A stretch of 33,969 nt of DNA, from positions 1 to 33,969 of the forward strand of contig JAPKCC010000029.1 in the NCBI GenBank assembly GCA_028823105.1. Reading direction: 5' to 3'. Position numbers and translations under genes: made by a program. Positions within the stretch are counted from its first letter, which is position 1, and every line of letters starts with the position of its first letter. Shown here piece after piece: positions 1-13,119 of this stretch. This DNA comes from Phycisphaerales bacterium (GTDB lineage: Bacteria; Planctomycetota; Phycisphaerae; Phycisphaerales; SM1A02). The notes under the pieces are model-generated. The model was not told where the DNA came from. It worked only from the letters and a program-made list of their open reading frames with translations, and ran no database searches.

Positions 1-1391
1 AACCAGCCGGCGATCTCCAGCATCTCGACCAAGGCCCGCTGCACAAGTTCGTCATCTTCCACGAGAAGCATGCGTCTACCCATCAGCCCTGTTGCCGGGG
101 GCATGTCCTTGAGCGAATCCGTCCGAGCGGCGGCGCAGAAGGGAAGATGGACGGAGATAGTCGTGCCCGAACCCATTCGAGTCTGGACGTCGATCGTTCC
201 CGAACAACGCTCGATGATCCACCAGACCGTCGACAGGCCGAGTCCGGTGCCTTCACCGAGATCCTTCGTCGTGAAGAAGGGTTCGAAGATCCGAGGAAAC
301 GCCGCCTCATCGATCCCGACTCCGTGATCTTCAACTTCGATGACGCTCCAGGTTCCGGGCGGACGATCGGCTCCGAACATCGGGACCGGCGACTCATTCC
401 GCTCGATACGAGTACGGATCGTGATAGCCCCACCACTCGGCATCGCGTCTCGGGCATTCACCACGAGATTGACGATCACCTGCTGCAGCGCGACCGGATC
501 CGCCTTCACACCCTGCGCCTCCGGATCGAGTTCGATCTCAAGCTTCACTCGATCTCCGAGCAATGGTTCGAGGAGCGATCTGCTCTCTCGAACTGCTTCG
601 GCCAACTCGATATCGCCGACCTCGAGCCGTCGACGACGCGCGAACACCAGCAGTCTCGCCGTGATGCCTGCCGCCCGATCGCTCGCCTCTTGGATCGCAT
701 CGAAGTGCCGAACCGCGGCCGCAAGATCACCGGCGGTCGCCCCGAGCGTCGCATGGCCCGAAATCGCCAGAAGAACGTTGTTGAAATCGTGGGCGACGCC
801 ACTGGCGAGTTGACCGATCGCCTCCATCTTCTGCGATTGAAGCAATTGATCCTCGAGCACCGCCCGCGTCCGTAGTTCCTTTTCGAGCTCCTGATTCCGA
901 CCTTTCAACTCCGCAGAAGCATCGCGAAGACGATTCGCCAGACGCCGCATGTCTTCCATGGAGTTGTTTTTCGCCTGGAGAAGCACCAGAAGCTCCGCGA
1001 CCCCAGCATTGGCGGGAAAGTCCTGCAAGCGAAGGCCCTGACCAGCGAGCTCGGAGAGATCCGAGATCCACGGGTGTCCGAGAAAACGCATGAGTTCCGA
1101 ATGTTCGTCGTGAATGAACTCGCCACGCAGTTGAATGCCGTCGAGCATCGGCAGATTGACGATCTGCATCTCCCCATCCGTCTTGCGGAGGGATTCGAAG
1201 TCTCGAACCGGAAGCGGCGTCTCAAGCACGGCGAGTTCGAAGAACGAAACATTCTTCAATCGATCACCCGCCAAGGCCGCCAGACGCGGCCCGGAAACGA
1301 CGATTCTTCCGTCGGCGTCGACCCCGAAATGGAATGGGAAGGCCCGATCGAGAATCCATGGTGCCAGAAACTCGTGCGGGTCAAGGGTCAA
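1..1391 (-). CDS. H-NOX-associated (HNOBA) hybrid histidine kinase, C-terminus cut by window edge
   Basis: This gene has no ATG start and runs off the left edge after 463 codons. In order it holds an HNOBA domain (about residues 15-145, with FHFGVDADGRIV and LRGEF...FLGHPWISDL), a short coiled coil (about 140-185), a HisKA domain with His201 in SGVAHDFNN, an HATPase (about 300-418, with VNARDAM, DHGVGI and GTGLGLS) and the start of a receiver (about 439 onward, MLLVEDDE). The phosphoacceptor Asp of the receiver lies beyond the window. The likely start is TTG at 1391, overlapping the TGA of the H-NOX gene; no in-frame ATG occurs before residue 75. HNOBA domains are known partners of H-NOX haem proteins, so this kinase should take its signal from the neighbouring NO sensor and pass phosphate to its own receiver. 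Domain calls are firm; the start codon is inferred. Confidence 0.9.
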   Translation of the reverse strand, partial: MTLDPHEFLAPWILDRAFPFHFGVDADGRIVVSGPRLAALAGDRLKNVSFFELAVLETPLPVRDFESLRKTDGEMQIVNLPMLDGIQLRGEFIHDEHSELMRFLGHPWISDLSELAGQGLRLQDFPANAGVAELLVLLQAKNNSMEDMRRLANRLRDASAELKGRNQELEKELRTRAVLEDQLLQSQKMEAIGQLASGVAHDFNNVLLAISGHATLGATAGDLAAAVRHFDAIQEASDRAAGITARLLVFARRRRLEVGDIELAEAVRESRSLLEPLLGDRVKLEIELDPEAQGVKADPVALQQVIVNLVVNARDAMPSGGAITIRTRIERNESPVPMFGADRPPGTWSVIEVEDHGVGIDEAAFPRIFEPFFTTKDLGEGTGLGLSTVWWIIERCSGTIDVQTRMGSGTTISVHLPFCAAARTDSLKDMPPATGLMGRRMLLVEDDELVQRALVEMLEIAGW

Positions 1392-1960
1392 CGTTTCACC
1401 ACATCCTCGGCGGTGCCCACGTAGAGAATCTTGAAGGCGTCGTGAGCCTCCTCACCCTCGCCGGTCCTGAACGGCGTGACTTCCACCTCTCTTCCGAATC
1501 GAGAAGCGAGCCCCTTCACCAATCCGGTCACCAACGCCGAAAGTCCGGGCCGATGGCTGAAGTAGTGCAAGGTCAGTCCCGAATCTGTCGAGTCGGAAAT
1601 CCGAAATCTCGGTGGCTTGAGATCGGGGAACGCGAGCTTCACTCGTGCATGCATCTGATCAAGATTTGCAAGGAATTCCGGGAGGGTCTTCCCGGCGGAA
1701 TCAAGCAGTTCTCCGTATCCCTCGACCGCGGTGTATTCGACCCAGTAACTGCCGAACGCCTCGAGGATGGTCTCCGCACTCAGCCCCAGTTCCTCGGACG
1801 CGGCGGCGACGAGATCGTAGGTCACCGAATCGTCATAACTCTCCATCGAGATGAAGTCCTCTTCCTGAACACCCGCTCGACTTCGAATTCGATTCCAGGC
1901 ATCGATCCCGAATTGCTCTGTGACGAGGCCCTTGACCGCCCGGTTGATTAGTCCATACAT
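1388..1960 (-). CDS. H-NOX haem nitric-oxide sensor
   Basis: This 190-residue stand-alone H-NOX (haem NO/O2-binding, PF07700 type) protein begins MYGLINRAVKGLV. The predicted proximal haem ligand is His104 in LDQMHARVK, and the haem-propionate motif YxSxR is intact (Tyr133, Ser135, Arg137). The segment after it, RPGLSALVTGL, aligns with the soluble guanylate cyclase stretch REGLQDIVIGI. It therefore has Leu143 where O2-binding H-NOX proteins carry a distal Tyr, which predicts an NO-selective, O2-excluding site. I chose the ATG at 1960 because family members begin here and GGAG lies about 8 bases upstream; the frame is also open further upstream. The TGA overlaps the TTG start of the HNOBA kinase, so the two form one operon. 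In known systems H-NOX with bound NO changes partner kinase activity. Confidence 0.93.
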   Translation of the reverse strand: MYGLINRAVKGLVTEQFGIDAWNRIRSRAGVQEEDFISMESYDDSVTYDLVAAASEELGLSAETILEAFGSYWVEYTAVEGYGELLDSAGKTLPEFLANLDQMHARVKLAFPDLKPPRFRISDSTDSGLTLHYFSHRPGLSALVTGLVKGLASRFGREVEVTPFRTGEGEEAHDAFKILYVGTAEDVVKR

Positions 1961-1988
1961 TCCACACTCCAGAAGAATCCGAAACCTC

Positions 1989-1994
1989 ATCATA
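1989..1994 (-). promoter_or_regulatory. Possible -10 element of the H-NOX/kinase operon
   Basis: TATGAT on the minus strand would place transcription about 20 bases before the H-NOX ATG, leaving room for its GGAG ribosome site. No convincing -35 box is visible. It lies in the 118-base divergent gap shared with the plus-strand SYLF gene. Confidence 0.3.
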
Positions 1995-2078
1995 GACCGA
2001 GGCCAGACCGCTCGCAGAGCCGCCAATGCTCCTCCCGGACCGATCAGAACCTATTTTCACCGCAAGGAATCCACAAGA

Positions 2079-2651
2079 ATGCGACCCACCCTCAGTACCG
2101 TCCTCCTCGCAGGCCTCCTCGTCACTTCCGTCGCGATCTCCGGATGTGGCAGCGTGCCGACCACCCAGAGCGGGATGAACACCAAGATGGAGACCGTGGT
2201 GCCGGCGGCGAACAAGGCCGTCAATACCATTCTTGCGAAGGATTCAAGCCTGCAACCGCTCATGGACAACGCGTACGGCTACATCATCTTCCCCAGCGTG
2301 GCAAGTGGTGCACTCATCGTCGGGGGACAAGGCGGCGACGGCGTGGTGTTCAGGAACGGCGCACCGTGGGGACTCGCGAAACTCGCCAGCGGATCCATCG
2401 GTCTCCAGGTCGGCGGAGAGACGTTTATCGAACTCGTCATCATGCAGACCGAAGACGCCTTCAATGCGGTCACCGCCGACAAGTTCTCCTTCACCGCTGG
2501 TGTCAATGCCACCGCGGTCAAGGCCGGCGCCGCCCTCGAAGCGAAATTTAACAACGGCATCGCCGCCTTCGTGTCGACCAACGGAGGCCTGATGGCCTCG
2601 GCAGCAATTGGCGGCCAGAAGATCACTTGCTATCCCGCGAACATCGAGTGA
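2079..2651 (+). CDS. SYLF-domain (Ysc84-like) lipoprotein
   Basis: This 190-residue protein has a lipoprotein signal peptide (hydrophobic LSTVLLAGLLVTSVAI, lipobox ISGC), so it is predicted to be an anchored envelope protein. The rest is a SYLF (DUF500/Ysc84) domain, recognised by AYGYIIFPSVASGALIVGG, the LASGSIGLQVGGETFIELV core and a glycine-rich end. Eukaryotic SYLF domains bind phosphoinositide lipids; the bacterial role is not established. The frame is open further upstream, but ATG 2079 begins the signal peptide and is preceded by AAGG. A second SYLF lipoprotein lies at 4520-5155, on the other side of the antiporter gene that follows 43 bases downstream. The gene is divergent from the H-NOX operon. 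Confidence 0.88.
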   Translation: MRPTLSTVLLAGLLVTSVAISGCGSVPTTQSGMNTKMETVVPAANKAVNTILAKDSSLQPLMDNAYGYIIFPSVASGALIVGGQGGDGVVFRNGAPWGLAKLASGSIGLQVGGETFIELVIMQTEDAFNAVTADKFSFTAGVNATAVKAGAALEAKFNNGIAAFVSTNGGLMASAAIGGQKITCYPANIE

Positions 2652-4498: not shown

Positions 4499-4529
4499 GA
4501 TAAAAATGTAGCCGACCGGTCAGCGGTCG
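4499..4529 (-). terminator. Terminator of the second SYLF gene
   Basis: A 6-bp stem (CGACCG/CGGTCG at 4513-4518 and 4524-4529, 5-base loop) overlaps the stop codon on the minus strand. It is followed five bases later by a T-rich run (ATTTTTAT). It lies between the convergent antiporter and SYLF genes. Confidence 0.45.
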
Positions 4530-5155
4530 AGCTCACTCCACAGCGATTCGGCACCGGACATTGCCCCGACACTGCCATCGAGAACGCCGTGGGGATTCGT
4601 GCCGTCCCCGTAGGACTTCAACATCAACTTCTCATCGATGCTGACGCCGAGTCCGCCGATCACCGCACCGCCGTACAGCCCCTTGATGATCGAGATCACC
4701 GTGGTGTCGTCAGCCTTCATCGGATCGCCTACCGTCCCGGTCGCACGAATCGCGGTTCCGCTCGCCTTTGCGATGAATCGCGTCCCGTCGAACACGAAGT
4801 CCTCGAAGGCTTCGGTCGATCGGAAGACCAGAACGATGTCGGCGGTCTTTCCGCCGATCTGCAGACCGATGCTTCCCGAAATGTAGTCGAGCGGCAACGG
4901 TGCAGACCATGCATCGTTCAGACGCCGCATCGCGACACCATGCCCACCCATCATCCCGATCCCCAGTCCGCCGCCCCCGATCTCGAGAATCACCACACCT
5001 TTGGCATCGGCGAAGGTCGAGCCGTCGATCTTGCCGTCGAGTCGAAGGTCGCTGACGACCCGAGCATCCTGAAAACTCTGGTAGGCGATGGAGTCTGGTC
5101 CGCAACCCGTTCCCGCGAAGAACGCCAGGGAAAGCACACCGAAAACGATCGACAT
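4520..5155 (-). CDS. Second SYLF-domain envelope protein
   Basis: A 211-residue SYLF-family protein starting at the ATG at 5155. The hydrophobic N-terminus (MSIVFGVLSLAFFAGTGC) looks like a lipoprotein signal, although Gly at -3 of the lipobox is atypical. The SYLF core is clear: VVILEIGGGGLGIGMMGG, YISGSIGLQIGGKTADIVLVF and GLGVSIDEKLM. It resembles the plus-strand SYLF lipoprotein in the SGSIGLQ-GG motif but is clearly a different, longer protein. A GTG at 5230 would add 25 residues with a second hydrophobic stretch; I prefer the shorter form, though neither start has a well-spaced ribosome site. It converges on the antiporter and is divergent from the porin gene. The molecular role is unknown beyond the family's lipid-binding reputation. 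Confidence 0.82.
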   Translation of the reverse strand: MSIVFGVLSLAFFAGTGCGPDSIAYQSFQDARVVSDLRLDGKIDGSTFADAKGVVILEIGGGGLGIGMMGGHGVAMRRLNDAWSAPLPLDYISGSIGLQIGGKTADIVLVFRSTEAFEDFVFDGTRFIAKASGTAIRATGTVGDPMKADDTTVISIIKGLYGGAVIGGLGVSIDEKLMLKSYGDGTNPHGVLDGSVGAMSGAESLWSELDR

Positions 5156-5274
5156 CCTTGATCGGCGTGCACATGCGATAGATGCCACACATGCGAAAGT
5201 AGGAATGATCATGTTCTTGATCCAATACACGGGTTACGAGGTGGTCACGGTTGCACATTGACCCCAGACAGAGC

Positions 5275-5286: not shown

Positions 5287-6765
5287 ATGAGAATACCTCC
5301 TCGCCTCGGTTTCATCTTTCTGATCCTTCTCAACCTTGGATCGTCGCCGGCGGTGGCCTCGTCAGAGGACTCCAATACCGATGCGGAACCCGATTCTCAG
5401 GTGATCCGACTTGGGAATCGCCAGCAGACCCAGTTCGCCGCAGACATCGATACCCAATCCGGCGTGACGCCGTTCATCCCCTTCCGGGACGAACCCACGA
5501 AGTACGAGCCGTTCGCCGACGCTCCACCCCTGGGCATCACCGATCTCAATCCGCTTCTGGGGAGTCCCTTGGCCGCACCTCTGGCGCCGCTCCGGAATGG
5601 CGAGTCATGGACGAAGCAGAACATGGGACTCACTTGGAACATCTACTACACCCTGCTTTATCAGCATGCGACGAGGACCAATCAGGGCCTTGGAAGAGAC
5701 GCGGGCAGCGGCCGGCTTGACCTGAACTTCGACTGGGTCATCTTCGATGAGCCGGGACTCGGCCGCGGAAGCATCGGCTTTCTGCTCAGAAGCGGCGTTG
5801 AACTTGGACAACCCAACACCTACGCCATGGGAAACGCCGTCGGGGCGGCGCCGGTCAATCTCAACGCGCTCCAATGGACGTATCCCACTTCGTTCGACCT
5901 GCTTTACTGGCAACAAGGTTGGTGCGACGACCGAGTGGTCGCAAGCGTGGGCAAGATTCACCCCAATCAGTACATTCAGCTGAGCCGCGTCGCCAACGAC
6001 GAAAGTCGCCAGTTCCTAGCCGGCGTCTTCGACGGACTGAATACCCTCGGCTCGACACTCGGTACGTATACCGCGGGCGCCGCGATCCAAGTCGTCCCAG
6101 TCAATGGCCTCTACATCAACGCGATCTGGGCGGATCCCGAGGGCGGCCCCGACGAGGGGTTCGGAGATCTGGGGGACGGGGCCTGGTGGGCAGCGGCACA
6201 GATCGGACTCACCCCGGTACTCCAGGGGTTCGATGGGAACGAAGTCACAGGCAACTGGAACGTCGTGTTCGCGGGAACCAACCGCGGGGTAACATCGTCG
6301 ACGCTACAACCTCAGAGTCAAGCTCAGAGCCAAGGCCAGTCCAACGGACAGGGCTTCGGAGTGATTCTTCAGCAAGGCCTCATGGCCACAACCGAAAACG
6401 AGAATGAATGGAGTTGGGGGGTCATGGTCGAACAGGGCCTGGCCAGCGATTTCGATCTGCTCCTCCAGTACGGTTCGAGCACCGAAGGCATGTCCGCGAT
6501 CGATCGGCAGTTCAATGCCGCGATCCGATGGGACCGTCCGTTCGGGCGGCGCGACGAAGCGATCGGCGCCGGCTTCAGTTGGTCACGCCCCACCGATCTC
6601 TATAGCCCGTCACGCCGCGAGATCATGATGATCGAGACCTACTACCGGATCCAACTCACCGAGAGCATGCAGCTCTCGCCGGATCTCCAGATCGTCCTGC
6701 AACCCGCGACCGGCGCTGATAGCCCGGTCTTGGTCTTCGGCATCCGGTTGAAGACCCAGTTCTGA
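5287..6765 (+). CDS. OprB-family carbohydrate-selective porin
   Basis: A 492-residue predicted outer-membrane beta-barrel with a cleavable signal peptide (LGFIFLILLNLGSSPAVAS). Family features are the early GLTWNIYYTLLYQHATRTNQG segment, alternating aromatic and polar strands (LDLNFDWVIFDE, WAAAQIGLTP, GNWNVVFAG, WSWGVMVEQG), a late QLSPDLQIVLQPATG strand, and a terminal aromatic (KTQF) as in barrel proteins recognised by the BAM complex. OprB porins let sugars diffuse across the outer membrane, which fits the many carbohydrate enzymes in the window. A short Gln/Ser-rich repeat (QSQAQSQGQSNGQG) about 345 residues in probably forms an extracellular loop. The gene ends at a strong hairpin facing the convergent oxidoreductase gene. 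Confidence 0.85.
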   Translation: MRIPPRLGFIFLILLNLGSSPAVASSEDSNTDAEPDSQVIRLGNRQQTQFAADIDTQSGVTPFIPFRDEPTKYEPFADAPPLGITDLNPLLGSPLAAPLAPLRNGESWTKQNMGLTWNIYYTLLYQHATRTNQGLGRDAGSGRLDLNFDWVIFDEPGLGRGSIGFLLRSGVELGQPNTYAMGNAVGAAPVNLNALQWTYPTSFDLLYWQQGWCDDRVVASVGKIHPNQYIQLSRVANDESRQFLAGVFDGLNTLGSTLGTYTAGAAIQVVPVNGLYINAIWADPEGGPDEGFGDLGDGAWWAAAQIGLTPVLQGFDGNEVTGNWNVVFAGTNRGVTSSTLQPQSQAQSQGQSNGQGFGVILQQGLMATTENENEWSWGVMVEQGLASDFDLLLQYGSSTEGMSAIDRQFNAAIRWDRPFGRRDEAIGAGFSWSRPTDLYSPSRREIMMIETYYRIQLTESMQLSPDLQIVLQPATGADSPVLVFGIRLKTQF

Positions 6766-6783
6766 CCCGCCGACCAACGAGAA

Positions 6784-6808
6784 AGGCCGCCCCTACGCGG
6801 GGCGGCCT
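6784..6808. terminator. Perfect 10-bp hairpin between convergent genes
   Basis: AGGCCGCCCC and GGGGCGGCCT form a perfect 10-bp GC-rich stem around TACGC. It lies 18 bases after the porin stop and 30 bases after the oxidoreductase stop on the other strand, so it may serve both. No long T run follows on either side. Confidence 0.7.
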
Positions 6809-6838
6809 CGAATCTCGTCTTCGGTTCGATCGATGAAC

Positions 6839-8197
6839 TCAGAGCCCGGCAACCGCCCAGCCATCCCGATACTGACGGGTGACGTACTGGTTGAGCTCGG
6901 GCTTGTTGGTGAACTTCATCCCTTGGGCATCCCACTCGAGCATCTCGTTGGGAGCGCGACTTGCCAGGGCTCCGATGGCGAGGGTCTCCGAGACCTTGCC
7001 GGCGTAGCTGAGCGGCGTCAGGCAGGGATCGCCGCCTCGGGCCTGATCGACCCACAGGTGCCAGTGATTGCCACCACGAGCCTGAGGCATCTCCATGTTG
7101 CGTTCCATGCCCTTGCGGAAGTACTTGTAGCCATCGCCTCCCTGGGGAACGAGGAGCGACGCCTTCTCGCCGACGATGACCACCACGTTCTGCGGAAGCA
7201 CGTAATCAGCAGGAAGTCCGAGCTGCGACGGGGGCGGCGTCACCTTGCCGTCGTACCACGTGAAGGGGATGTCCTCCCCACCCGAAGCCTTGTTCCCCGC
7301 GAAGACCATCTTGACGACCTCCGTGGAGGGGTACTGGTCGTCGGTGCCGTCTTTGGCTTCGCAGATCACGGTCTTCGGATCTCCAAGATCCAGAGGCTGG
7401 AAGGCCGCGTCGACGATATGACACGCCATGTCACCGAGGGCGCCACAACCGAAGTCGCGGACACCACGCCATGCGAACGGCGCGTACGCCTTGTCGAGGT
7501 ACGGTCGCGAAGGTGCCGTGCCGAGCCACAGGTCCCATTCGAGATAGCCGGGGACCGGGTTGCTCCCAGGAGTCCGCGCATTCCCCTGAGGCCACCAGCC
7601 GTTCGGCCGGTCGGTCCACGCGTGAATCTCCTTGATCCGCCCGCAGATTCCGTCGCGGACGCCCTGCATGCACCGCTGCTTCATGACGCGTGACGCATTC
7701 TGCGTACCCATCTGGGTCGCCAGTTCCGGCTTCGCCAAGGCGGTGTTTCGCAGCGCTCGGCACTCGTGCACGGAGTGCGCGAGGGGCTTCTGACAATAGA
7801 CGTGCTTGTTCTGGTTGAGGGCCGTCATCGCGATGATGGCGTGCATGTGGTCGGGCGTGGTGACCGAGACGGCGTCGATCTGATCACCCATCGAGTCGAA
7901 CATCTCGCGGAAGTCAACGAACGTCTTCGCACCCTTGTGCTTGTCCGCGGCGGACTTGAGGTTGTTCCGATCGACGTCACAGAGCGCCACCATGGCCACT
8001 TCCGGGTGAGCCGAGATCTGCCCAAGGTCACTCGCGCCCATTCCGCCGACACCCACAGAGGCGACATTGGTTTTTTCGAGAACCCCGCCCCGACCGAGCG
8101 TCGGCTTCCAGCCGACAAGGACAACACCGGCGGCAGCGGCAGATTTAATGAACGTACGGCGACCGAAGCTGCCGTTGGCGAGATGCGATTCTGTCAT
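6839..8197 (-). CDS. Tat-exported Gfo/Idh/MocA-family oxidoreductase
   Basis: A 452-residue NAD(P)-dependent sugar oxidoreductase of the Gfo/Idh/MocA family. The N-terminus has a twin-arginine signal (Arg13-Arg14 in GRRTFIK followed by AAAAGVVLVG), so it is folded with its cofactor and exported. The Rossmann motif is GVGGMG (49-54), followed by ALCDVD; TTPDHMHA and CQKPLAHS mark the active-site side, with Lys137 in a QKP motif where most members have EKP. The C-terminal half is the usual beta-sheet substrate domain (DFGCGALGDMACHIVD, GGNHWHLWVDQARGG). AGGAG sits 7 bases before the ATG. It lies 110 bases downstream of a DUF1080 gene on the same strand. In this phylum such enzymes are linked to oxidising glycosides to 3-keto forms; the substrate here is unknown. 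Confidence 0.92.
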   Translation of the reverse strand: MTESHLANGSFGRRTFIKSAAAAGVVLVGWKPTLGRGGVLEKTNVASVGVGGMGASDLGQISAHPEVAMVALCDVDRNNLKSAADKHKGAKTFVDFREMFDSMGDQIDAVSVTTPDHMHAIIAMTALNQNKHVYCQKPLAHSVHECRALRNTALAKPELATQMGTQNASRVMKQRCMQGVRDGICGRIKEIHAWTDRPNGWWPQGNARTPGSNPVPGYLEWDLWLGTAPSRPYLDKAYAPFAWRGVRDFGCGALGDMACHIVDAAFQPLDLGDPKTVICEAKDGTDDQYPSTEVVKMVFAGNKASGGEDIPFTWYDGKVTPPPSQLGLPADYVLPQNVVVIVGEKASLLVPQGGDGYKYFRKGMERNMEMPQARGGNHWHLWVDQARGGDPCLTPLSYAGKVSETLAIGALASRAPNEMLEWDAQGMKFTNKPELNQYVTRQYRDGWAVAGL

Positions 8198-8307
8198 GAC
8201 GGACTCCTGATGCTCGGCGCAAGCCGAGGCGGATTTCGATTCTTGGGGCGTATTGCGGGACCTCGGACCAATCGGAGGATCGTCCGTAGATCGTTCTGAA
8301 ACTGATG

Positions 8308-9486
8308 CTAGCGTGAGGTTTTGGATTCGGGGAGAGAAATCGGCCTGACTCTCAAATCCTTGAAGTAGACGAGGTCTCCATGCCCGCAGAACCCGAGGTG
8401 ACCTGACGTCCGCGCGAGCCCCGGATGCTCACGTCCGCTCAAGGTCCCCGCTCGGGTCGCTTTGTCGAGATCAATGTCGGAAATCACGGTTCCGTTCAGG
8501 ATGACGCGAAGGCGACGCCCCTCGACCCGGATTTCCTGAAGATTCCATGATCCTGGCGGAGCCTGATAACCACGAAGGGCGGGCGCGATTCCGTAGACGG
8601 ATCCGTGAAACTGCCAGGGCTTCAGCCCGGCATACTTCGGATGACTGTTATCGAGAACCTGGACCTCCATCCCCTGATAGGCGGCATCACCCGTCGACGG
8701 CGCTCGGACTGCGATTCCGTTGTTCGCCCCAGGAGGAACCTTGAATGCGAATCGAAACACGAAGTCGTCGTAGGTTCCCGACGTATAGAGATTACCCCCG
8801 GCCCGCTCCGGGAACGTCCGAATCGCGCCATCCTCGACGCCGTACCCTTCGGTGTTGCCGATCCAACCATCGAGATCGCGCCCGTTGAAGATTGGCTGAA
8901 ACCCATCCCCATCAGCGGCGATCCGCGCCAAGGAGATTTTGTCGATGAGTACCGCGGACTCGCGCGCGGCGTCTGGGTTTTCGAGGGTCCGGAAGACCAG
9001 TGTGAACGGGCCGGATGCTTCGATGTTCGAGGGGATCTCGAGGTCTACGAATCGGCGTTCCCAGAGACCGGCTTCGATCCCTGCCGACGTCGCGAGTGAA
9101 CGTCCATCTCCGTCCGTGATCGAGACCAAGATCTTCGAAATATCGAGACCCCACCGCGCGACGCCAAATCCGACTCGATACGCCGTCCCCGGAGTGATGG
9201 CGTCGCCGGCGAGCACGAAGCTCGCGGTGCAGCCACCCTTCGACCCGAGGGCCGCGACCCCATCATCGAACCACTCCGAGTCTGCCACGCCGAGTTCCTT
9301 CGTCGACCAGTACCTGGCGTCCGCCGCACCGGTACCGGCCAATTGGCAACCGTGTCCCGCAGGATCGAATTCAGAATTCTCAAGGGGAATCGGTTCGAGC
9401 GTCACCCCCTTCGTCGCCGCGGCTGCGGTCATCGACATTGTGTGCAGCAATACCAAGGCGAATCCGATGAGGGGAGCAATCTTCAT
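8308..9486 (-). CDS. Secreted DUF1080 protein (putative 3-keto-glycoside hydrolase)
   Basis: A 392-residue exported protein with a signal peptide (APLIGFALVLLHTMSMTAAAA). Residues about 25-190 form a beta-rich domain of the kind that binds carbohydrate. Residues about 195-388 are a DUF1080 domain (FNGRDLDGWIGN, GVEDGAIRTF, FVFRFAFKVPPGANNGIAVRAP, MEVQVLDN, GSVYGIAPA, LRVILNG). DUF1080 proteins have a concanavalin-like fold and are associated with cleavage of 3-keto-glycosides. That matches the Gfo/Idh/MocA gene just downstream, and the two probably form a pathway pair. The start is ATG 9486 (a GTG two codons earlier is possible). There is no Shine-Dalgarno site, but TATCAT ends 7 bases before the ATG, which suggests a leaderless transcript. 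Confidence 0.87.
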   Translation of the reverse strand: MKIAPLIGFALVLLHTMSMTAAAATKGVTLEPIPLENSEFDPAGHGCQLAGTGAADARYWSTKELGVADSEWFDDGVAALGSKGGCTASFVLAGDAITPGTAYRVGFGVARWGLDISKILVSITDGDGRSLATSAGIEAGLWERRFVDLEIPSNIEASGPFTLVFRTLENPDAARESAVLIDKISLARIAADGDGFQPIFNGRDLDGWIGNTEGYGVEDGAIRTFPERAGGNLYTSGTYDDFVFRFAFKVPPGANNGIAVRAPSTGDAAYQGMEVQVLDNSHPKYAGLKPWQFHGSVYGIAPALRGYQAPPGSWNLQEIRVEGRRLRVILNGTVISDIDLDKATRAGTLSGREHPGLARTSGHLGFCGHGDLVYFKDLRVRPISLPESKTSR

Positions 9487-10422: not shown

Positions 10423-13119
10423 GTGCCTCCGGGAAAACCTCCATCTCATGACAATCGAAGGGCGCCGAGCTCGGCTCCACTCGACATTCTCGCGGACATC
10501 GCGGCGGACCTGCTTGCTCAAAACGATTCGAACGCTTGGCCACCACTGGTCGTCGACGGCCTCCTAAAGATCAAAGCCATCGCCGCAGTGACCATCTTGC
10601 CGAACTCGGCTGCACTCGACATTCTCGCGTACATCGCCGCGGACATGCTCGATCGAGACGACCCGGACGCTTGGCCACCACTGGTCGTCGACGGCCTCCT
10701 AAAGATCAAAGCCATCGCTGCAGTGACCATCTGGTGGCGACCGGAGATCGACGAACCAATCGTGAGTGTTGCCAGTGGCGGCCTCAAGAACGAATCCATC
10801 CTGAGCATGTCGAGGGATCTCGCCGAGACCGCTCTCGAGACCATCGGCGACGAGATGGTCACCACGCCCCCCGGTCCGGAGCCGCTGATCGCGATCAGAC
10901 TCGATCATGACACTGTGCTGACGTTCTCCGGGATCTCCAGTTCCAAATCCGAAATGCTCGAACTCGCACGGCAGACCGTCCGAATGCTCCGCGCACCGAT
11001 CGCCGCCATCGGCCGCGGCATGGAGCTTCGCACGGTCAGCCAAGATCTTGCGCATCATCGTGATCTCGAGCGCCGGATCGCCGAAGCACTGAGCGGGGTG
11101 AAGGACATCGCTTCGCTGGGGATGACGGTTCAGAGCCTCGTGGAAACGAGATTCAAAATCGAATACGCCGCGATATATTTCTTGGAATCCGGAACCCGCC
11201 ACCTCCGTCTCGTGGGGAACAAGGGTCTGAACGAGTGGGAGGTCGAGGATGCGGAACGCACGGCCTGGGATCGACATCCCGGACGAGTGATCCGCACCGG
11301 CGAGATGGTGCATGTCCACGACACCAAGAACGATCCAGAACAACGCTCGCTCACCTCGGCGAGAAGAGTCGAGATCCGCAGTCGCTGCTACCTGCCCGTT
11401 CACGCGGGCGGCGAGATCGTCGGCGCCCTGGGCCTCGCCTCCACTCGGGTCGGCGCCTTCGATGAACGCCATGTCGACATCCTCAAGTTCCTCGGCGACC
11501 TTGCCGGACTGACCTGGATTCGACTTCAGGAAGAAGTCCAAAGGCAGACACGTGATCGCGTGCTGGTCGCGAGTGGCGACGCGGCGGACCTGCTCCTGTC
11601 ATCGCCTCGATGGCGGGATTCGATCTTGAGAGTGCTCGGGCTGATCGAGGGCGCGTTTCGGTCGTACTCCGCAAGGTTCATCGGCATCGACGGGCGCAGT
11701 TTCGGCGGGCCGTCAAACATGCCCGACGTTTCTAAAGACTTCCTGCTCGCCACTGCCACCTCCGAGACGGGTGGGCTCGTGGGGGACGGCGAGGAACCGG
11801 TTCCAGGGTTCGATTCCGATGCCCCGGGGATCTCGACCAGTTTCGTTGCGGTTCCGATCTGGGTTCGAGGCGAGACGGGCGGAATCCTCCTGATCGAGGA
11901 GTCCAGTCGCTCGCGCATTCATGACCAGGCGTCGATCATGGCTCTTCGGGCGTTCGCCGACTTGATCGGAGCCACGATGGCACGCGAGGCAGTGGAAGGC
12001 GAACTGGTCCACGCCCAACGAATGGAAGCGGTCGGCCTGCTCGCGGGAGGCATCGCACACGACTTCAACAACCTGCTCTGGCCGATCCTCGTGCACTCGT
12101 CGACCCTCGCGGATTCGGAAACGGACGAGACCCGCTTGGAGATGCTCTCGGATATTCAGTTGGCGGCCCGGCGCGCCGCCGAACTCGTCGAACAGATCCT
12201 CTTTCTGAGCCGCCGGCGAGTGATCGCCGATTCCAGCACGCCTCTCAAGGATGTGATCGAGGAGGCGATGGTGCTACTCGCACCCTCCACCCCGGATCAC
12301 ATCAGACTCGAGTCGGAGATCAACGACCCGAATGCGACCACTCGTGGCGATCGAGCCGCACTGCTCCGGGTGGTCCAGAATCTGGTGACCAACGCTAGGC
12401 ACGCGATCGAAGGGACGAGTGGCACGGTGACCGTCGTGCTTCGACGATGCCCCGTGAACGCGAACATGATCTATCTAGAGGTTCGCGATGATGGAGTTGG
12501 AATCCCGGAGGAGATCCGCAAGAACCTCTTCGATCCCTACTTCTCGACTCGGGCGGTCGGCCGAGGCACCGGCCTCGGGCTGACCATCGTCCATCGGGTG
12601 ATCACCGAAATCGGCGGCGAGATCGAAGTCGATAGCGAAGAAGGAAAGGGAACGACCTTCCGGGTTTCGCTTCCGCGAAGCGAGGAAGCCGAGCTATTGA
12701 CGATCCCGAGCAAACCGAAGATCTCACCCCGCGGAGACGAATGCGTGCTGGTCGTCGATGATGATCCGATGGTGCTCCAAACGAGTGCCTCTCTCGTCGA
12801 TTCTCTCGGGTACGACGTCAAGGCCGCCGACGGGACGGAGGCCGCCCTCGCGATCTTCGATGACGCACGGGAACAGGGAACCGAACCACGCCTGGTGCTC
12901 ACCGACCTCTCGATGCCGGACCGCGACGGAATCTCGCTCGCAGAATCCCTCCGGGATCGTGGATTTACGGGACCGATCGTACTACTCACTGGATTCGGCG
13001 ATGACTCCGTCGAACGCGCCGCCAAGGCCGGAGTGACCGAAATCCTCCAGAAACCGATCCCTCGCGAGGATCTGGGAATCGCGATTCGGCGCCTGCTGGA
13101 CCGGCCCAAGGGACCGTGA
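10423..13119 (+). CDS. GAF-domain hybrid histidine kinase with C-terminal receiver
   Basis: An 898-residue cytoplasmic hybrid kinase with no membrane segment. Residues 17-106 contain a 45-residue segment twice in tandem; the second copy runs into a GAF-like domain (to about 205). A clear GAF domain follows (about 215-368, with FKIEYAAIYFLESG and RSRCYLPVHAGGEIVGALGLAS), and a third, weaker GAF-like region at about 390-520 (FVAVPIWVRGETGGILLIEE). HisKA has His546 in GGIAHDFNN. The HATPase carries NLVTNARHAI, DDGVGI and GTGLGLT, and the receiver has Asp828 in LTDLSMPD with the conserved Lys in LQKPI. The ligand of the GAF domains is unknown, and no DNA-binding output regulator lies nearby. The GTG start is 4 bases after the pgeF stop. 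Confidence 0.93.
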   Translation: MPPGKPPSHDNRRAPSSAPLDILADIAADLLAQNDSNAWPPLVVDGLLKIKAIAAVTILPNSAALDILAYIAADMLDRDDPDAWPPLVVDGLLKIKAIAAVTIWWRPEIDEPIVSVASGGLKNESILSMSRDLAETALETIGDEMVTTPPGPEPLIAIRLDHDTVLTFSGISSSKSEMLELARQTVRMLRAPIAAIGRGMELRTVSQDLAHHRDLERRIAEALSGVKDIASLGMTVQSLVETRFKIEYAAIYFLESGTRHLRLVGNKGLNEWEVEDAERTAWDRHPGRVIRTGEMVHVHDTKNDPEQRSLTSARRVEIRSRCYLPVHAGGEIVGALGLASTRVGAFDERHVDILKFLGDLAGLTWIRLQEEVQRQTRDRVLVASGDAADLLLSSPRWRDSILRVLGLIEGAFRSYSARFIGIDGRSFGGPSNMPDVSKDFLLATATSETGGLVGDGEEPVPGFDSDAPGISTSFVAVPIWVRGETGGILLIEESSRSRIHDQASIMALRAFADLIGATMAREAVEGELVHAQRMEAVGLLAGGIAHDFNNLLWPILVHSSTLADSETDETRLEMLSDIQLAARRAAELVEQILFLSRRRVIADSSTPLKDVIEEAMVLLAPSTPDHIRLESEINDPNATTRGDRAALLRVVQNLVTNARHAIEGTSGTVTVVLRRCPVNANMIYLEVRDDGVGIPEEIRKNLFDPYFSTRAVGRGTGLGLTIVHRVITEIGGEIEVDSEEGKGTTFRVSLPRSEEAELLTIPSKPKISPRGDECVLVVDDDPMVLQTSASLVDSLGYDVKAADGTEAALAIFDDAREQGTEPRLVLTDLSMPDRDGISLAESLRDRGFTGPIVLLTGFGDDSVERAAKAGVTEILQKPIPREDLGIAIRRLLDRPKGP
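10471..10740 (+). repeat. 135-bp intragenic tandem duplication in the hybrid kinase
   Basis: Bases 10471-10605 and 10606-10740 are two adjacent 135-base copies (45 codons, frame kept). The stretch 10534-10594 matches 10669-10729 with a single mismatch, while the first 63 bases of the unit differ at about eleven sites and the last ten or so have diverged. Each copy encodes an LDILAxIAADxL helix followed by AWPPLVVDGLLKIKAIAAVTI, which looks like the first helix and strand of the following GAF-like domain. Confidence 0.92.

Follow-up and report, generated by a model that had tools for sequence, protein, structure and literature searches.

What is the role of an H-NOX gene whose stop codon overlaps the start of a histidine kinase gene, and through which route might such a pair pass on a nitric oxide (NO) signal in a planctomycete-like bacterium? 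The question is raised by the left end of a DNA stretch of 33,969 nucleotides, here called the window, which spans its contig from the first base to the last. The pair very probably constitutes a bicistronic, Nostoc-type NO-signaling module, in which H-NOX would control a hybrid kinase via the HNOBA domain of the latter, with an onward phosphorelay; it adds one more example to a known kind of system and is no new architecture. The features on which this reading draws are as follows.

1388..1960, minus strand: H-NOX (HNOB) gene, 190 aa, ATG start at 1960, TGA stop at 1390-1388
1388..1391, minus strand: TTGA overlap between H-NOX stop and kinase start, read from the sequence
1..1391, minus strand: HNOBA-HisKA-HATPase_c-receiver hybrid histidine kinase, TTG at 1391, 463 aa read, in frame 1391-3
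867..1382, minus strand: HNOBA (H-NOXA, PAS-like) domain, about residues 4-122, continuing into a coiled-coil signaling helix to about residue 175
138..815, minus strand: kinase core, placed by Pfam, residue positions, a 17-sequence alignment and the CckA match
1..68, minus strand: first receiver residues (LLVEDDE...EIAGW), placed by alignment with four full-length genus orthologs, ending before the phospho-acceptor Asp
1987..1995, minus strand: CTATGATGA, a -10-like box upstream of H-NOX, from the genus alignment

The H-NOX gene and the overlapping kinase gene

The H-NOX gene, described as intact in the earlier note, is indeed complete: its product matches the HNOB profile (PF07700) with 172.8 bits (cut-off 25.5) over positions 1-162 of 163, and the ATG at 1960 is conserved, with the mechanical ORF list beginning the frame earlier, at a TTG at 2026. 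Among solved structures, Alr2278 of Nostoc is closest (E 1.5e-56) and the beta1 subunit of soluble guanylate cyclase (sGC) is second (1.1e-32), the remaining PDB chains being far weaker (2kii 2.8e-7, 1u4h 7.3e-5); for the chains that we label, partly by assumption, as Shewanella-type and Thermoanaerobacter-type, the best of each gives 2.6e-10 to 7.3e-5. The candidate heme ligand His104 lies within LDQMHAR, and YFSHR occupies residues 133-137; both align with Alr2278 and presumably represent the proximal heme-ligand His and the YxSxR motif. Across the 15 H-NOX rows aligned, this His is conserved, as are the Tyr, Ser/Thr-type and Arg positions. In the predicted distal pocket, Trp73 aligns with Trp74 of Alr2278 and Leu143 with Met144, positions that we take to line the pocket, as we also presume the roles of the matching Nostoc and Thermoanaerobacter residues. 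The aligned distal positions carry no Tyr of the kind present in O2 binders, as in NO-selective members, and no Cys occurs in the whole 190-aa sequence. Judged by dN/dS values of 0.04-0.19 across 15 genus pairs, the gene is under purifying selection and maintained. Its product is predicted to bind heme and NO.

The overlap between the H-NOX TGA and a TTG-started kinase gene, also reported earlier, is evident from the kinase TTG at 1391-1389 and the H-NOX TGA at 1390-1388, which have the four bases TTGA in common, and from the genus, in which five of six members show a 4-nt overlap and the sixth a 2-nt gap. Upstream of this TTG, the open frame of the kinase contains neither an ATG nor a GTG; downstream, no in-frame Met occurs before residue 75, within HNOBA, and the start falls in a single alignment column in all six genus members (GTG in four, TTG in two). 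The kinase thus genuinely begins at a non-ATG codon, and this is conserved. The earlier note was right about this start and wrong to treat it as special: it is ordinary, and callers that accept GTG or TTG find the gene. Nor would an ATG-only search miss the kinase, as had been claimed; it would yield a shortened gene. The incompleteness of the gene is that of the contig edge and has no biological meaning. With regard to transcription signals, the TATGAT of the -10-like box is present in five of six genus members, and the box occurs once in the window against 0.04 occurrences expected; a promoter scan gave no minus-strand sigma-70 site at 1987..1995, and the box is a weak promoter lead. A search of 1-2100 for terminator-like sites gave none.

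The N-terminus of the kinase is an HNOBA domain, a domain reportedly defined by Iyer and colleagues in 2003. The earlier assignment, for which a profile check on residues 15-145 had been proposed, is upheld by a Pfam score of 62.8 bits against a cut-off of 23.4, with the best stretch at residues 84-175. Residues 4-122 match 2p04 (E 4.2e-14; chain named 'signal transduction histidine kinase'), which we take to be the entry for the Npun02000820 H-NOXA structure, and residues 16-171 are collinear with sGC alpha1 (6pas_A) across the PAS-like domain and coiled coil (E 3.5e-7). A structure predicted from the single sequence for the first 185 residues is poor (mean pLDDT 41) and confident only for the helix at about 145-184. 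In the core, HATPase_c is matched with 78.5 bits (cut-off 26.4), and HisKA with 25.2 bits, slightly below its cut-off of 26.9, as is also the case in three of the four full-length genus orthologs. The H-box His is residue 201, followed by the N-box (308-317), G1 (355-361), the F-box (369-376) and G2 (381-388); H201, N308, N312, D355, G357, G359, G381, G383 and G385 are invariant in 17 aligned sequences, and the core matches that of CckA (5idj_A) with an E of 6.4e-42. The dN/dS values of 0.08-0.30 across 15 genus pairs indicate that the kinase gene, too, is under purifying selection and maintained.

Since the window is the entire contig, the kinase is cut by an assembly edge. The window contains only some 22 receiver residues, which is why Pfam gives no Response_reg match there. 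The four full-length genus orthologs, of 553-554 aa, all contain Response_reg (60.9, 60.2, 54.7 and 64.7 bits), and the receiver acidic pair, Asp and Lys are present in each of them. The domain string given in the earlier note can accordingly be read from the window for HNOBA and HATPase, with HisKA falling under its cut-off and the receiver supplied by the orthologs. A search of the kinase's own genome for the missing C-terminus gave nothing at ortholog-level identity beyond the window piece (67%); the nine other matches (26-33%) were considered as the missing receiver end and rejected as paralogs only.

Conservation in the genus and occurrence across phyla

The H-NOX/kinase pair and its gene order are found in six of eight genus genomes (G000, G001, G002, G003, G006 and G007), and both genes are absent from the other two, with completeness of 68% and 88%. 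To complete the receiver and find the next gene, as proposed earlier, was precluded in the window by the end of the contig and could be done with the orthologs, which provided the receiver and, in all four genus loci reaching that far, a convergent gene for a sugar-isomerase-like TIM-barrel protein past the kinase. No response regulator adjoins the pair in the four genus loci that extend past the kinase. As the next downstream gene is convergent, the pair forms a two-gene unit with no adjacent response regulator. On the H-NOX side, two genes for Ysc84-like proteins, at window positions 2079-2651 (plus strand; 23.8 bits, below the cut-off of 25.1) and 4520-5230 (minus strand; 44.0 bits), flank a Na+/H+ exchanger with a TrkA-N domain; the former gene is divergent from H-NOX, and the whole Ysc84-like/exchanger block is syntenic in the genus.

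The planctomycete host guessed earlier is consistent with the 16S comparison. When the 16S piece was compared with 25 named genomes, 13 gave any match, the best being a Phycisphaerales MAG (79% across all 829 bases), followed by a Planctomycetota MAG (72% across almost the whole piece) and a Gemmatimonadetes MAG (75% over 570 bases); this placement, which is coarse, probably fits a planctomycete host.

In the survey across Planctomycetota that had been proposed, 15 of 61 relatives and 22 of the 392 genomes sampled from the phylum had HNOBA, the corresponding figures for H-NOX being 17 of 61 and 42 of 392. Without doubles, the genomes with HNOBA number 33; with G274 (matched at the coiled-coil end only) and the second match of G231 set aside, 32 HNOBA genes were examined, including that of the window, the second gene of G163 being outside this count. 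An H-NOX gene adjoins the HNOBA gene on the same strand at 31 of these 32 loci, the exception being G095, whose HNOBA kinase is found in a genome with no H-NOX match. H-NOX comes first in 28 of the 31 pairs, and the order is reversed in three. The 32 HNOBA proteins comprise 21 kinases with a receiver, five kinases without one, two HWE-type kinases, two kinases cut by a contig end (the window and G007), one SpoIIE phosphatase and one fragment. Among 398 sampled genomes of Pseudomonadota, 23 match HNOBA, several of them at the coiled-coil end only; ten open frames scanned there comprised three kinases, six GGDEF proteins and one protein with a receiver only, and one of the three kinases (L227) has a receiver, the other two being cut by the locus end. 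These counts from the two phyla establish HNOBA-kinase-receiver as a known and recurrent architecture. The fusion of HNOBA to a receiver-bearing kinase, presented in the earlier note as special to this locus, is thus shared with 21 of 32 HNOBA proteins of the phylum and with L227, and a structure of a histidine-kinase HNOBA domain is already available (2p04/2p08).

Several further observations were made in these searches. Two apparent HNOBA-cyclase fusions in the phylum, G231:C75 and G274, were rejected: the proteins are adenylate/guanylate cyclases, and their matches cover profile positions 181-216 and 160-216, i.e. the coiled-coil end. With the whole kinase as query, a remote-homology scan gave 80 loci with matches to the kinase core; an HMM made from HNOBA regions found no HNOBA among them (best E 0.17, at one locus). 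In L187 (G163:C1), at 6015-9469 on the minus strand, genes for a STAS protein, H-NOX, an HNOBA-SpoIIE-HATPase_c_2 fusion and a methyltransferase-like protein stand in a row, all in the same orientation, and a gene for a sigma-54 activator lies upstream of them. This row, which is a more unusual arrangement than the H-NOX/kinase pair of the window, suggests an NO sensor whose output is a partner-switching phosphatase and not a kinase. The same genome encodes a second HNOBA protein, in a 601-aa frame (G163:C1:7481972-7482205). Two H-NOX genes accompany one HNOBA hybrid kinase gene in L185 (G032), where they lie upstream, and in L178 (G009), where they lie downstream. In G403 (G403:C5 and G403:C3), H-NOX matches are split across two frames at two places, one piece having an internal stop, and a 184-aa HNOBA fragment is also present; the H-NOX/HNOBA system looks decayed in this genome. 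A literature search for H-NOX together with planctomycetes, with most subscription papers outside its reach, found no paper naming both, and the 'HNOBA' of PMC11705938 is a chemical.

Partnership, ligand and proposed mechanism

Whether the two adjoining genes also encode partners can be approached through their divergence. Distances were compared for 27 of the 31 pairs, with two-H-NOX loci and fragments left out. Those of H-NOX and HNOBA correlate with r = 0.86 over the 27 pairs and with 0.90 over the 24 pairs with HisKA-type kinases, for which the corresponding values are 0.82 for H-NOX versus the kinase core and 0.87 for HNOBA versus the kinase core. When the window's genus is reduced to one row (19 rows), H-NOX gives 0.84 with HNOBA and 0.71 with the kinase core. 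None of 5000 shuffles reached any of the H-NOX distance correlations, in which shared species history is uncorrected.

One could argue that adjacency here does not mean partnership, and that the HNOBA kinase answers another ligand while H-NOX has a target of its own. H-NOX and HNOBA can in fact each occur alone, since G095 has its HNOBA kinase without an H-NOX match and 22 of the 42 H-NOX genomes in the phylum sample have no HNOBA match. However, the same-strand H-NOX neighbor at all but one of the HNOBA loci examined, the overlapping genes in most genus members and the fact that the strongest distance correlation is the one between H-NOX and HNOBA make this explanation highly improbable. Instead, H-NOX most likely controls the kinase encoded by the overlapping gene, a reading that draws on observed gene content, domains, overlap, conservation, conserved catalytic residues and co-divergence.

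In such an NO-signaling module, the cytoplasmic H-NOX would bind NO at its His-ligated heme, and NO would weaken or break the proximal His bond, leading to an altered H-NOX face toward the partner. The hybrid kinase would dock H-NOX at its N-terminal PAS-like HNOBA domain; by analogy with related systems, the two proteins may form a complex with HNOBA as the docking site. The change would then travel along the coiled-coil signaling helix to the HisKA/HATPase core, where autophosphorylation of His201 would change, the likeliest effect being inhibition, as with HqsK of Vibrio; phosphate would pass to the kinase's own receiver and from there to a separate Hpt and response regulator. Both the sign of the NO effect on the kinase and the phosphate route are modeled on such precedents. 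According to the available excerpt of PMC6759604, one operon of V. parahaemolyticus contains H-NOX and a hybrid kinase, inhibition is strongest with Fe(II)-NO H-NOX, and transfer to Hpt is of the His-Asp-His type.

Comparison with known systems places the window pair closest to Nostoc. Like Alr2278, its nearest solved relative, the window H-NOX is a stand-alone protein, and the N-terminus of the kinase matches the solved H-NOXA domain of the H-NOXA/HNOBA histidine kinase of Nostoc punctiforme (2p04/2p08). The differences are that the window host is planctomycete-like and that a receiver is present in the genus orthologs, the Nostoc kinase having been compared via its H-NOXA domain alone. In the accessible portion of PMC2828450, Npun02000820 of N. 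punctiforme is the protein of the H-NOXA structure, and the same domain order is noted in sGC. The order of H-NOX, PAS-like HNOBA and coiled coil is likewise shared between the window system and sGC, with the window H-NOX matching that of sGC beta1 and the kinase matching HNOBA and the coiled coil of both sGC alpha1 and beta1; the window system, in contrast, consists of two proteins and has a histidine kinase in place of the cyclase. The whole module could therefore be pictured as soluble guanylate cyclase split in two, with a kinase replacing the cyclase. Vibrio HqsK and Shewanella HnoK resemble the window kinase, taken together with its full-length genus orthologs, in that H-NOX stands beside a receiver-ended hybrid kinase, for which His-Asp-His transfer via Hpt would be expected (PMC6759604, as excerpted), whereas the window H-NOX is of the Nostoc/sGC-beta1 type and is not nearest to Shewanella-type chains. 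The HNOBA-GGDEF proteins of Pseudomonadota also carry HNOBA at the N-terminus of a signaling enzyme, but their output is GGDEF or GGDEF-EAL and their HNOBA scores are lower, two of six being slightly below the cut-off.

An alternative concerns the ligand, as H-NOX might serve mainly as a redox sensor, or an oxygen sensor, and not as an NO sensor. Some H-NOX proteins sense oxidation via a Cys-ligated zinc site, as stated in the available part of PMC12329717, and one title in the reference list of that paper poses the question of NO sensor versus redox switch for Nostoc H-NOX. However, with no Cys in its sequence, the window H-NOX has no such zinc site, and its distal Trp73 and Leu143 correspond to Nostoc Trp74 and Met144, with the Tyr of O2 binders missing, so that a redox or oxygen sensor appears improbable, although redox switching at the heme itself is conceivable.

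As an NO-sensing module, the pair extends a cyanobacterial and sGC-like design to a planctomycete-like lineage. Being a clean two-gene unit, it could be reconstituted in vitro, and because H-NOX and HNOBA are separate proteins, it can be used to test how an H-NOX domain communicates with the PAS-like domain located after it in sGC.

A candidate output through a free Hpt

Two Hpt domains (Pfam) were found in the window's genome, which is 97% complete. One belongs to a receiver-containing CheA-like protein; the other is a stand-alone protein of 113 aa (G000:C31:13105-13446), the only free Hpt found in the genome. A receiver-GGDEF gene, with its GGEEF motif intact, starts 21 nt after the stand-alone Hpt:

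1426-2724 of L225 (G000:C31), plus strand: stand-alone Hpt and receiver-GGDEF gene

Should the hybrid kinase depend on a free Hpt, the stand-alone protein would be the candidate. It is possible, though doubtful, that the NO-sensing pair acts through this Hpt and the downstream receiver-GGDEF protein and thereby sets cyclic-di-GMP, a proposal that extends the NO-signaling module and does not replace it. In its favor are the free one of the two Hpt domains, encoded ahead of a receiver-GGDEF gene whose motif is intact, and the studied bacterial H-NOX systems, which often act on cyclic-di-GMP in the accessible portions of PMC8846402 and PMC8738867. On the other hand, the stand-alone Hpt is unlinked to the H-NOX locus, receivers on other long open frames of the genome and one or more additional hybrid kinases could share it, and the Hpt count refers to Pfam Hpt domains in an incomplete assembly (97%), with ChpT-like phosphotransferases outside the search. 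Put as one tentative and rather unlikely statement, an NO receptor built like a split sGC would, in a planctomycete-like lineage, drive a His-Asp-His-Asp relay via a single free Hpt into a receiver-GGDEF protein; if true, NO would be a direct switch of cyclic-di-GMP in that lineage. The free Hpt beside the receiver-GGDEF gene makes the output question testable.

The window itself encodes a second hybrid kinase (GAF, HisKA, HATPase_c and receiver) at 10423-13119 on the plus strand, a possible competitor for the stand-alone Hpt.
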